In this document: one piece after another, positions 11,116 through 31,548 of the stretch | Layout: every line of letters begins with the position of its first letter | Position numbering within the stretch: position 1 is the first letter of the stretch | NCBI GenBank assembly: GCA_964035545.1 | Contig: OZ037768.1 | Coordinates: 21,080,700-21,140,699 of the forward strand | Direction of reading: 5' to 3' | Source: Bugula neritina | Taxonomy: Eukaryota; Bryozoa; Gymnolaemata; Cheilostomatida; Bugulidae | DNA: 60,000 nt | Translations under genes and position numbers: made by a program | Notes under the pieces: generated by a model | What the model was told of the DNA's origin: nothing | The model's database searches: none | What the model saw: the letters and a program-made list of their open reading frames with translations, nothing else

Positions 11116-11747
11116 ATGGCTGGGAGAAGAGTCAGCAGACCAGATGAAGGTGCCAAACACTATAGCAATTTATTTCAATAGAACCTGTAGAAATAAAGTT
11201 TTGAGCATGGTTTTAACTTATTTATAAAACTTTGAGATTAGAAAAAGTAATTTATTCTATATTAAAGCAATTTTATTGACCCAATTGTTAGAATTATATA
11301 TCTTTAAATTACTCTGCGTTTATTGACTACTTATAATAAACTATATGATAGATAATATTTGTTAGATGACAGTTCATCAGTATACACAGTTTATATACAG
11401 AGCAACATTGTAGACTTGTATCTAGAAATATTAGTTGTTAGATTTTGCTTTCAGCTTTATTGTTCATTGCTAGAGTTTGTAGCATTTCATCCTTTATATT
11501 TTGTAGGTTTGTACAGACTCTGGTTTGGTCATGATCACAGGAGTTTCCTTATGGAGGAATTGAGGATTATAATCAAAACAGCTAATACCCTTAAAAGATA
11601 CACCATTGAAAAGGTAAAGCAGATTCCTGAAGCCAGAACTGCAACACACCTCATCCTATTTGAACGAATTCCACCAGACATCCACCTTCTCTTTCCACTA
11701 GTCACTCATCTCACTATCAAAAGGTCTCAACTATTTTCCATACAAAA
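11116..11747 (+). other. Exons 1-2 of the LRR-Roc-COR-caspase gene (N-cap)
   Basis: Exon 1 starts at an ATG in context AACATGG and runs 34 bases to a GT donor (phase 1). Exon 2 follows TTTTGTAG at 11507. Two donors are possible, at 11724 (GTCTCA) and 11748 (GTAAGA); both give phase 2. I chose 11748 because it matches a normal donor and because the resulting join continues the LRR pattern into the first LRR exon. Exon 2 looks like an LRR N-terminal cap: a charged helical stretch followed by the hydrophobic spacing of an incomplete repeat. The start is chosen by phase and context only. Confidence 0.6.
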
Positions 11748-29700: not shown

Positions 29701-31548
29701 AGATCATGAAGACTATGGCTGTCACATGTTAGTCATCATGAGTCATGGAAGTAAGAAAGACCTGATCCATGGCACTGATATGAAATCTATTGACCTTACA
29801 GATGTGTTTGACCTGCTCACCCCTCTCAACTTTCCTGGGATGGCTGGAAAACCTAAAATGGTGGTGTTGGAAGTGTGCAGTGGAGGTTAACAAATTATAT
29901 ATTCTATATTGTATGCAAATCTAGAGCTCATTGCTTAAACTATAAGAGACCAAATTATTTAAACTTCAAGTGTGTGAATTATAAAAAAATATTTTACAAT
30001 TTTAAAAAATGGAAGAGTAAAAAGAGCTATAGGCCATTGTTGTTAAGTCATTATAAGTTTACATCTGACATCCATGCATTAGTATTTTTTTAATTAGTTT
30101 TCATATGACAGAGAGCTTTGTTGTATTCCAGTTTTATTCTAATTTTATTATGTTTATTTTAAATAGTTTTATATTTACTCATATGTATATGTTATGTCAC
30201 CATACATTTTAGTTCGGTCAGATCTTGGTGAGCGCGGGATTGTAACAGATCCAAAACTTGCCTCTGCTTCTAGCAAAGAAGTTAAGCACGAGGTGGTGCC
30301 TTCTCCACCCTCAAAGATTGGTGAAGTGCAGCGTGAAGCTGAGTCTATGACTAGACTAAACTATGATGACTTGCTTGTGATCAAGTCTAGCTTTGAAAGT
30401 GAGTTGCAGTTACCATAGTCCATTATTATTTTTAGTTGTTTTTCTGTAAATAGGAAACTTTTACTTTATTATAAGATATCAGAAGTCCATCATACCACAT
30501 AACATTAAAATCAGCAGAAGATTGACTTTGTAAAAGAACCCAATCACGAAAAGCGAAACATACTTAAAAGCTGTATATACAAGTCAATTTTTAAAAAATC
30601 AACTAGTTAATGCAACTGAAAAGTGCTCGATTTTATAAATGAGGCCTAGCTAAAAACTAGCATTTTATAATTTCATTTTAAATGTTAGTTTGTGGTGTAG
30701 ATTGCACTACCAATGAATGTGTATTTTGTAGGTTTCCTGGCAGTAAGACATGAGGTTTACGGTTCTCTGATGATCAGAGCTCTTGTGTCCACCATGTATA
30801 AACATGCCGGCCACCGTCACATGTGTGAAATCTTCAAAAATGTAAGCTCCTTCTTTGCCTATTATGCTCCTGCATGGAAAAAAAAATATTTTCACTGTTT
30901 AGCCACTTGCACGCACAAAGAGACTTGGTCATATAATTTTTGTGAAGCTAGCTCTCACTAAGTATTTTTAGCTTTTACATAGTATGTTTATTGTTTAGTT
31001 AATATCTAGGAGTAAGCCCTTATCTATACTATACCACAATATACCAGCCTGATAATGTAGTGGCATTAAAGGCATAATGTGCTCAGTTATGCAAATGTCA
31101 ATAGTAAAGTTTTATTTTTTTAGCTTTTTGAGAAAATAAGATAGAATTATTTTACTTTAAATTTTGCATATGTATACTTTATATTATTTATTATATTATT
31201 CTGCAATAATACTAAATATTTTCAATAGTGATTAGCTAATCGCGTAAAGGTTTTAGTAAACCTATGTGAAGTTTTTTATTTTCTTGTTTACATAGAAATC
31301 AAACATTAGCATGAAATTATAAAACATAGTTTTTTTTTATAAGAAGAATAAACCTTTTAATTTATTTTCATTTATTCCAATTTATTTTGTTCTCATCACT
31401 AATATTATAGGTTCAGCAGAAGGTTCGAAAGACGTGTCTGAAGAGACAGCTCCATGAAGGACAGCTGGTATTTACATACGATAATCTAACTCATGGGAGA
31501 CAACTCTATCTCTTTCCTGGATTTAATGGACATAGACGGAGAGAGTGA
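11116..31548 (+). CDS. LRR-Roc-COR-caspase fusion protein (16 exons, 1443 residues predicted)
   Basis: Hand-assembled exons: 11116-11149, 11507-11747, 13403-13543, 20661-20801, 22415-22555, 23202-23336, 23682-23822, 24125-24265, 25335-27406, 28064-28147, 28465-28655, 29087-29299, 29663-29885, 30213-30398, 30732-30841, 31411-31548. All introns are GT-AG, phases agree throughout, and the sum is 4332 bases with one terminal TGA. Predicted order: short N-cap (1-91), LRRs (92 to about 440), Roc GTPase (about 470-660), COR (about 665-1060), acidic linker (1091-1154), caspase p20 (about 1175-1340) and p10 (about 1345-1443). From the families, Roc-COR is a dimerising GTPase switch, LRRs sense ligands or partners, and caspases cleave proteins after Asp in cell death or inflammation. 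A GTP-gated self-contained death or immune effector is the inference. No signal peptide or membrane segment is evident, so the cytoplasm is expected. Exons 1-2 are the least certain. Confidence 0.8.
11869..12074. repeat. (TA)n microsatellite flanking the mariner element, left
   Basis: TA repeat of about 200 bp with a few single-base interruptions, running directly into the mariner terminal repeat. Confidence 0.95.
12075..13021 (-). mobile_element. Tc1/mariner element rearranged into a foldback
   Basis: The ends are inverted copies beginning CGAGGGTGGTTCAAAAAGTA, with TA on both sides (12073-12074 and 13022-13023), as mariner insertion produces. The minus strand from about 12714 to 12183 encodes mariner transposase in two frames, with HDNARPHTS around the second catalytic Asp and [10 protein letters not shown] around the third. 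The DNA-binding N-terminus is absent. Instead, 12815-13021 is an inverted copy of 12075-12280, including coding sequence for the transposase C-terminus (the segment ending GGDYIEK). So the element has 205-bp arms around a 535-bp single-copy core. It lies in intron 2 of the Roc-caspase gene. Confidence 0.9.
12183..12714 (-). pseudogene. mariner transposase, N-truncated and frameshifted
   Basis: The catalytic half of a mariner-type DDD transposase, split into two frames near 12400-12428. The first part covers the region around the second Asp (HDNARPH). The second covers YSPDLAPSD and the C-terminal [11 protein letters not shown] stretch. The helix-turn-helix region and first catalytic Asp area are missing or unreadable, so it cannot encode an active enzyme as it stands. 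Confidence 0.85.
13022..13130. repeat. (TA)n microsatellite flanking the mariner element, right
   Basis: TA repeat continuing the tract that the mariner element interrupts. Confidence 0.95.
15282..15560 (-). pseudogene. Fragment of an unnamed repetitive protein family inside the TIR element
   Basis: A 92-residue frame with [31 protein letters not shown] and [17 protein letters not shown]. It is the inverted, diverged sister of 15754-15978 (+). The KVQLLTLAP segment followed by W..DK resembles a widespread uncharacterised family seen in many invertebrate genomes; that resemblance is from memory. Function is unknown. Confidence 0.45.
15754..16200 (+). pseudogene. Sister fragment of the same unnamed family
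   Basis: The plus strand reads [25 protein letters not shown] and NHKDLN to a stop at 15978. Downstream, after frame changes, a [18 protein letters not shown] stretch is readable around 16115-16160. The same stretch occurs inverted around 14950-15010, inside the left arm. The coding potential is broken by stops and shifts on both arms, so the element is not autonomous here. Confidence 0.45.
17448..20059 (-). mobile_element. Non-LTR retrotransposon 3' fragment, copy 1 (interrupted by an hAT-like element)
   Basis: On the minus strand, 18220-17460 encodes the C-terminal part of a LINE reverse transcriptase polyprotein in broken frames: [15 protein letters not shown], the segment [15 protein letters not shown], and [20 protein letters not shown]. 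The 3' end lies at the left (CATCATCACGAG on the plus strand). The 5' end is truncated. It is flanked by a direct repeat derived from GCATAATTTTTTACTCT (17431-17447 and, shortened, 20060-20073). The homologous intron at 23393-23410 contains this site once with no insertion. Bases 18275-20034 are a later insertion. Confidence 0.85.
18275..20034. mobile_element. hAT-like foldback element with an almost pure A/T core
   Basis: The termini read CAGTGTGGTATATTTAAGAG inverted at both ends. The flanks are an 8-bp direct repeat ACTAAAGC (18267-18274) and ACTAGAGC (20035-20042), one mismatch. The other LINE copy shows ACTAGAGC once at this point (21792 region). CAGTG ends and 8-bp duplications are typical of the hAT superfamily. 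The arms extend roughly 440 bp (18275-18718 and 19608-20034). The central 890 bp (18719-19607) are almost only A and T, starting with a (TA)n tract and continuing as a mosaic of TATAATA-type repeats. No transposase is encoded. Confidence 0.8.
20979..21823 (-). mobile_element. Non-LTR retrotransposon 3' fragment, copy 2 (duplicated with the LRR unit)
   Basis: Same element and same end points as 17448-20059, here uninterrupted. The minus strand encodes the reverse transcriptase C-terminus in two overlapping frames: 21665-21369, with [15 protein letters not shown], and 21501-21100, with [39 protein letters not shown] and a C-terminal RFKNAVKRN. Identical insertion points in two neighbouring introns mean that the LINE jumped once and the exon-intron unit was then duplicated. 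Confidence 0.85.
25335..27406 (+). other. Exon 9: last LRRs, Roc GTPase and COR domain
   Basis: A 2072-base exon entered in phase 2 (TTTTACAG acceptor) and left in phase 1 at CAT/GTAAGT. It opens with two to three LRRs ([17 protein letters not shown] and LKTLDLSYN). The Roc domain has a P-loop GNTMAGKTS (protein 476-484), a switch II DMGG (530-533) and a THKD box in place of NKxD (599-602). COR follows, with the usual FWEQV, GKVLWY and [12 protein letters not shown] stretches. All guanine-binding motifs look usable. The nearest familiar relatives by layout are LRR-Roc-COR proteins such as MFHAS1-like and LRRK-like ROCO proteins; there is no kinase domain. Confidence 0.92.
28064..28655 (+). 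other. Exons 10-11: linker, strongly acidic
   Basis: Exon 10 (28064-28147) adds 28 residues without a recognised domain. Exon 11 (28465-28655) encodes an acidic stretch around [13 protein letters not shown] and VPEEDET before the caspase. It contains DLSD (protein 1109-1112), which matches the DxxD pattern cut by executioner caspases, exactly between the GTPase half and the protease half. Release of the protease by cleavage here is inference. Confidence 0.75.
29087..31548 (+). other. Exons 12-16: caspase (peptidase C14A) domain
   Basis: Five exons. Exon 12 carries [10 protein letters not shown] and RKGSSADV, with the S1-pocket Arg (1195). Exon 13 carries the catalytic His in IMSHG (1253) and the catalytic Cys in LEVCSG (1297), 44 residues apart, as in animal caspases. 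Exon 14 is the intersubunit linker with possible processing Asp residues (VTD-P, NYDD-L). Exons 15-16 are the small subunit, with AVRHEVYGS in place of the SWR-type segment (Arg1367 kept) and the closing strand around LYLFPGF. The large/small subunit pattern argues for a true caspase and not a metacaspase. The pentapeptide is EVCSG, not QACRG. No CARD or DED precedes it; the LRR-Roc-COR part takes the prodomain position. Confidence 0.9.

Follow-up and report, generated by a model that had tools for sequence, protein, structure and literature searches.

In NLRs, the apoptosome and the inflammasome, a sensor and a nucleotide switch are combined with caspase activation, and in the cell-death systems known to us the sensor and the switch reach the caspase via adaptor domains. 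Among ROCO proteins, the effector of LRRK2 and LRRK1 is a kinase (PMC6337361), Trichoplax has at least 17 ROCO genes, some of which carry CARD, death or TIR domains (PMC4104024), and brown-algal ROCO genes with leucine-rich repeats (LRRs) on phase-2 exons have been proposed to be shuffled immune receptors (PMC11378527); moreover, prokaryotic caspase-fold proteases joined to an NTPase have been described (PMC3501461, PMC7159879, PMC8195603), all according to the available sections of these papers. Here we report on a gene of the bryozoan Bugula neritina, located on chromosome 4 within a stretch of 60,000 nucleotides (nt) (21,080,700-21,140,699 of OZ037768.1; assembly GCA_964035545.1), which is referred to as the window and in which the gene occupies positions 11116-31548 on the plus strand (exon positions below are window positions on this strand). 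Very probably, it joins LRRs, a Roc GTPase domain, a COR domain and a caspase in a single gene.

The gene was rebuilt as 16 exons with consistent phases, in which 15 of the 15 introns are GT-AG and the stop codon is at 31546-31548, and the product of 1429 amino acids is composed of, in order, N-terminal exons, six LRR-pair cassettes, Roc, COR, an acidic linker and the caspase p20 and p10 parts. Exon 9 (25335-27406) encodes the last LRRs, Roc and COR, with Roc directly preceding COR in one chain. Pfam searches gave 28.6 bits for Roc (cut-off 27), whereas COR-A (16.3 bits, cut-off 35.3) and COR-B (17.1 bits, cut-off 27) score under the cut-off by sequence. In the AlphaFold model of the exon 9 product (pLDDT 83.8), which matches LRRK2, LRRK1 and the C. 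tepidum Roco, the predicted COR is nevertheless clear by fold. The columns of GKTS, D-x-GG and TH-x-D, which we take to be the GTP-binding motifs, are intact and invariant in 29 aligned sequences. LRR_14, LRR_1, LRR_4 and LRR_8 are well above cut-off in the cassettes, and for a 1071-amino-acid part of the protein 11 Pfam families were listed, with neither NACHT nor NB-ARC among them.

The caspase is encoded by exon 12 (29129-29299; p20 start), exon 13 (29663-29885; p20 with the catalytic His in MSHG and Cys in EVCSG), exon 14 (30213-30398; p20-p10 linker), exon 15 (30732-30841; p10) and exon 16 (31411-31548; p10 end and stop), the last three of which are also seen in copies of the gene. The C14 profile scores 131.3 bits (cut-off 21.4) and is covered over positions 1-215 of 233. 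As judged by profile and fold comparison, with His and Cys retained, this is a true caspase with predicted protease activity.

Our data suggest that the gene belongs to a family of about 80 LRR-Roc-COR-linker-caspase loci in B. neritina. For the Roc-COR exon, the best 64 of 150 candidates were scored and yielded at least 64 matches in the same genome (44-100% identity), all open except for a single TAG in one of them; a further 22 loci come from the COR-A profile, bringing the total to at least 86. The caspase search gives lower bounds as well (best 150 of 295 candidates scored; 150 of 176 matches listed). Among the matches listed, C14 is located within 8 kb downstream on the same strand at 71 of the 86 Roc-COR loci, on the opposite strand within 8 kb at none, and upstream at a single locus, where it belongs to the neighbouring copy; the association is therefore beyond chance. 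Counting C14 and/or the linker downstream on the same strand raises the number to 79. Conversely, 119 caspase clusters were found, 71 with Roc-COR upstream, 15 with the linker only and 33 with neither. The last group includes C2:30512909-30549374 and C9:9322746-9357840. The linker, searched for with a related one, has 61 matches in the genome and exon 2 (11507-11747), an N-terminal cap that precedes the LRRs and has no Pfam match, has 45; an exon 2 counterpart is present 16-24 kb upstream, on the same strand, of each of the three closest copies. An open frame of 2363 amino acids near one further locus (L035) was rejected as masked sequence read as open.

That these parts form one gene is supported by their splice sites. 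The COR exon has a phase-1 donor at its end (GTATGT, GTACGT, GTGAGT or GTAAGT) at 30 of 30 loci, as read by eye from the sequences since the yes/no columns of the script asked about other offsets, and at 28 of these linker and/or caspase exons lie inside 1.5 kb downstream. In the window, the COR exon is followed by a short post-COR segment that is kept in copies (exon 10, 28064-28147) and by the acidic linker with its DLSD motif (exon 11, 28465-28655). All 19 linker exons listed have a GT donor after AG, no more than three codons from the linker motif (at once in 15 and two or three codons later in four), and behind this donor the sequence diverges, with stop codons at varying places. Copies 2 and 4 share the phases of the eight C-terminal exons, and copy 3 nearly does so (Roc-COR 85, 72 and 88% identical); for copies 2 and 4 the spliced aligner recovered the layout seen in the window, and for one distant copy it gave a full-length model. 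Linker and caspase also adjoin copies with 46-50% Roc-COR identity. The earlier note on this DNA had proposed a single gene joining LRR, Roc, COR and caspase, and a sixteen-exon structure with canonical splice sites; the former is supported by exons, phases and purifying selection common to the paralogs, and the latter was reproduced within 11116-31548 with GT-AG sites and phases in agreement. Two of the joins it had singled out, 27406/28064 and 29299/29663, stand, while the third, 28655/29087, is probably 28655/29129. The reason is an AG exactly 9 nt before Met in 32 of 32 distinct caspase first exons (Met was included in the search motif), the comparison of which places the exon 12 acceptor, probably, at 29129, 42 nt later than first proposed. 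In frame, the 9 nt encode V in 31 exons and A in one, followed by Y in 18 or F in 14 and by a residue that varies (A-Y-K in the window). The acceptor at 29087 likewise preserves the frame, and the spliced aligner picked it; the query carried the 29087 version, so this is no independent vote.

Purifying selection acts on the linker and caspase exons. Compared with the copy on C6, seven of the eight exons are 77-89% identical and the introns 48-62%, and the ratio of nonsynonymous to synonymous substitution rates (dN/dS) is 0.32 for LRR-Roc, 0.17 for COR, 0.69 for the post-COR stretch, 0.23 for the linker (including exon 10) and 0.33 for the caspase; across pairs the caspase values range between 0.16 and 0.33.

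The LRR cassettes are repeated phase-2 exons, five of 141 nt (exon 3, 13403-13543; exon 4, 20661-20801; exon 5, 22415-22555; exon 7, 23682-23822; exon 8, 24125-24265) and one of 135 nt (exon 6, 23202-23336), with one LRR pair each. The exposed positions of an LRR follow from the consensus LxxLxLxxNx. At these positions there is an excess of amino-acid change: with five cassettes from the window gene and six from the C6 copy compared gene by gene and pooled, the nonsynonymous (pN) and synonymous (pS) differences are 0.258 and 0.145 at exposed positions vs 0.038 and 0.128 at the other positions (permutation p 0.0013 and 0.00015). The test omitted exon 6, whose cassette has 135 nt, as well as one partial cassette from the C6 copy; an earlier, slightly different set of exposed positions gave the same direction. 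In 25 related exons pN/pS is 0.52-0.64 across the LRR part vs 0.08-0.46 elsewhere. A solitary LRR-pair exon, 73% like the cassettes of the gene, is present downstream at 47127-47270 on the plus strand and perhaps belongs to the next copy.

The C-terminal part varies in another manner. Among 22 loci of the commoner type there are two kinds of caspase; the Roc-COR parts are 83% identical within the first, 86% within the second and 83% across the two, whereas the caspase exon is 91% and 86% identical within the kinds and 41% between them. In the 121 cross-type pairs Roc-COR is thus 83% and the caspase exon 41% identical, and the type of linker tracks that of the caspase wherever both were read. 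Distances of Roc-COR and caspase, compared to test for co-inheritance, agree weakly (Mantel r 0.216 with 24 sequences, reached in 0 of 5000 permutations; a second set of 22 sequences, r 0.218, 3 of 5000 permutations). Together, the linker and caspase exons resemble an exchangeable cassette placed after the phase-1 post-COR intron; cassette exchange and gene conversion of Roc-COR would both fit the pattern alike.

The earlier note knew of no described animal protein in which Roc-COR precedes a caspase, and none emerged from our searches of papers and protein databases. No Roc-COR-caspase protein was found in the open literature; subscription journals and preprints were outside the search and may hold a description. 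In the available sections of papers having both ROCO and 'caspase domain', ROCO occurs only in reference lists or as an author name, and caspase is absent from the available sections of both B. neritina genome papers and of the Flustra genome paper. The closest eleven Roc-COR database matches look like single-exon pieces read from genomic DNA, and they therefore neither show nor refute the join between Roc-COR and caspase. Four database matches (P0008-P0011), from metagenome or read assemblies, are Roc-COR exons with 29-43% identity, and three of them (P0008-P0010) end in a PCK motif resembling that before the donor in the window gene; judging from these PCK endings, relatives may exist in other animals. 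A low-sensitivity alignment scan of 84,980 prokaryotic genomes with Roc-COR gave 78 pattern matches and no relatives by tblastn.

Several observations speak against a conserved, fused receptor protease. Seven of the 86 Roc-COR loci have neither linker nor caspase (5 of the 64 and 2 of the 22), and the 33 caspase clusters without upstream Roc-COR or linker have been given above. With the spliced aligner, copy 3 needs an extra split and a shifted exon edge, and two of six modelled copies have no convincing p10 in the fetched DNA, one of them with a stop at an exon edge. Exon 15 is only 41% identical to the C6 copy in the DNA alignment, which we take to be a misalignment because a separate comparison places this exon at 83% amino-acid identity. 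Linker dN/dS is 0.26-0.63 in other pairs (the higher values being 0.43 and 0.63), the post-COR stretch is hardly constrained (0.44-1.99), and the test of LRR selection covers just 11 cassettes from two genes. C14 is listed in none of 30 database Roc-COR matches, and no database protein of about 590-1874 amino acids matches linker plus caspase. To these are added the Glu of EVCSG and the Met behind the conserved acceptor, which bear on two alternatives and are taken up with them.

The alternative that fares best, albeit unlikely, is that the gene is fused and its caspase is something other than an Asp-specific death enzyme, with other substrates or a scaffold role, in colony allorecognition, symbiont control or development. 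The Gln of the QACxG motif belongs to the S1 pocket. In the window this residue is Glu (EVCSG), so that a preference for Asp is no more than putative, and among 12 p20 exons found eight have EVCSG, two ETCSG and two a Gln form; both Gln forms (L006 and L011) occur at caspases without listed upstream Roc-COR. A colonial host with symbionts (PMC7576161) would moreover offer other uses for variable receptors. Against this, the catalytic Cys is present in 12 of the 12 p20 exons (His was required by the search pattern itself), both p20 and p10 align with CED-3, which is the best match (E 7.5e-23), and selection retains the caspase as described above.

Rather improbable, and less likely than a single fused gene, are two co-duplicating neighbours, perhaps polycistronic and trans-spliced, i.e. 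an LRR-ROCO gene with its own 3' end and a caspase gene that starts at the exon 12 Met or uses the acidic linker as a prodomain. A separate caspase start would also suit the Met 9 nt behind the conserved acceptor, in 32 of 32 first exons with the Met set by the search motif; linker and caspase do travel together while Roc-COR is common to both types of cassette, and the failure to find a fused protein in the databases is what two genes would predict. On the other hand, the COR exon at 30 of 30 loci runs into its phase-1 donor without a shared stop, the 19 linker-exon donors are followed by diverging sequence with stop codons at different positions, exon 10 and the linker show constraint in the frame shared with the parts on either side, and the 9 nt before Met vary codon-wise (GTG, GTT, GTA; TAC, TAT, TTT), like coding sequence. 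A decaying repeat family without function, likewise less likely than a fused gene and suggested by the size and clustering of the family and by transposons between exons, is highly improbable given that the best 64 Roc-COR exons are open save for the single TAG and that dN/dS is well under 1 except at the LRR face and the short post-COR stretch.

We therefore return to the fused gene and consider it likely that it represents a one-chain LRR-Roc-COR-linker-caspase receptor protease of immune type, from a family of about 80 loci, acting as follows. The LRRs would bind microbial, symbiont or non-self ligands, upon which the Roc-COR GTPase would shift between monomeric and dimeric states and bring the caspase domains together; the caspase would activate by proximity, perhaps freeing itself at a DLSD-like linker site, and would kill or alarm the cell through cleavage of substrates, for which gasdermin is one candidate. 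In 21 linkers the motif at this site is DLSD (12), NISE (4), NLSD (2), ELGD (1), DLSN (1) or DISE (1). Roc-COR would act in place of NACHT or NB-ARC and a separate adaptor or executioner would be dispensable, a role akin to a one-piece apoptosome or inflammasome. That the ligands are non-self is reasonably probable, and for death driven by the caspase we see an even chance. In exon-wise profile searches of the same genome NB-ARC was not found and NACHT gave one short match, while there were four CARD and three gasdermin N-terminal matches (lower bounds; the control genomes were prokaryotic, without an animal positive control), which suggests that ROCO-caspases may take the place of NLRs in B. 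neritina. More tentatively, with odds slightly short of even, bryozoans might have largely dropped NLR-type receptors and might rely on a parallel one-chain LRR-Roc-COR-caspase system of some 80 loci with diversifying LRR faces and exchangeable caspase cassettes.

As to the remaining features, exon 1 (11116-11149, 34 nt; start codon and 11 codons) is open and in phase with exon 2, and is the least certain exon. Transposase fragments (12183-12750, minus strand), which were identified by eye and which we take to be mariner-like, lie in the intron that separates exon 2 from the first LRR exon. Downstream of the gene are G+C-rich gag-pol-like open frames (37369-42935, plus strand) and a second, partial copy (48110-49501, plus strand), presumably a Ty3/gypsy-type retrotransposon as judged by eye, in an AT-rich genome. 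A COX1 from this genome, translated with the invertebrate mitochondrial code, is 100% identical to B. neritina COX1 over 447 amino acids, and the next named species is Flustra foliacea (89%). Elsewhere, a COX1 copy with mitochondrial-type TGA codons lies inside chromosome 6 (C6:11174072-11175412), a COX1 without TGA on C17 is perhaps from a bacterial associate, and further interrupted COX1 genes are present on C65 and C196.

If true, a GTPase switch can replace an ATPase switch, the adaptor step can be skipped and each receptor carries its own death enzyme; some 80 loci whose sensor faces change and whose effectors can be exchanged would amount to a novel type of receptor repertoire in animals, and how Roc-COR drives its effector, a question central to LRRK2, would become testable through a protease read-out. 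LRRK2 and LRRK1 have a kinase where the window gene has a caspase, and no protease is given in the records examined for ROCO proteins of the MFHAS1/MASL1 type, a group whose possible relation stems from the names of database matches, or for the Chlorobium tepidum Roco. The Trichoplax genes are likewise animal ROCO genes, some of them linked to adaptor domains of cell death; in the available text these are adaptors able to recruit a caspase, whereas the window gene carries the caspase itself. With the brown-algal LRR-ROCO genes it shares LRRs on phase-2 exons; theirs, in the sections available, are 72-bp exons without an effector, compared to 141-nt LRR pairs and a caspase here. The prokaryotic fusions also place a caspase-fold protease and an NTPase in one protein, with NACHT, NB-ARC or other partners and, in the text examined, no Roc-COR. 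Finally, the likeness to NLRs, the apoptosome and the inflammasome is one of concept, i.e. a sensor, a nucleotide switch and caspase activation, with a repeat sensor (here LRRs) in common; their switch is NACHT or NB-ARC, whereas that of the window gene is Roc-COR, with the caspase in the same chain.

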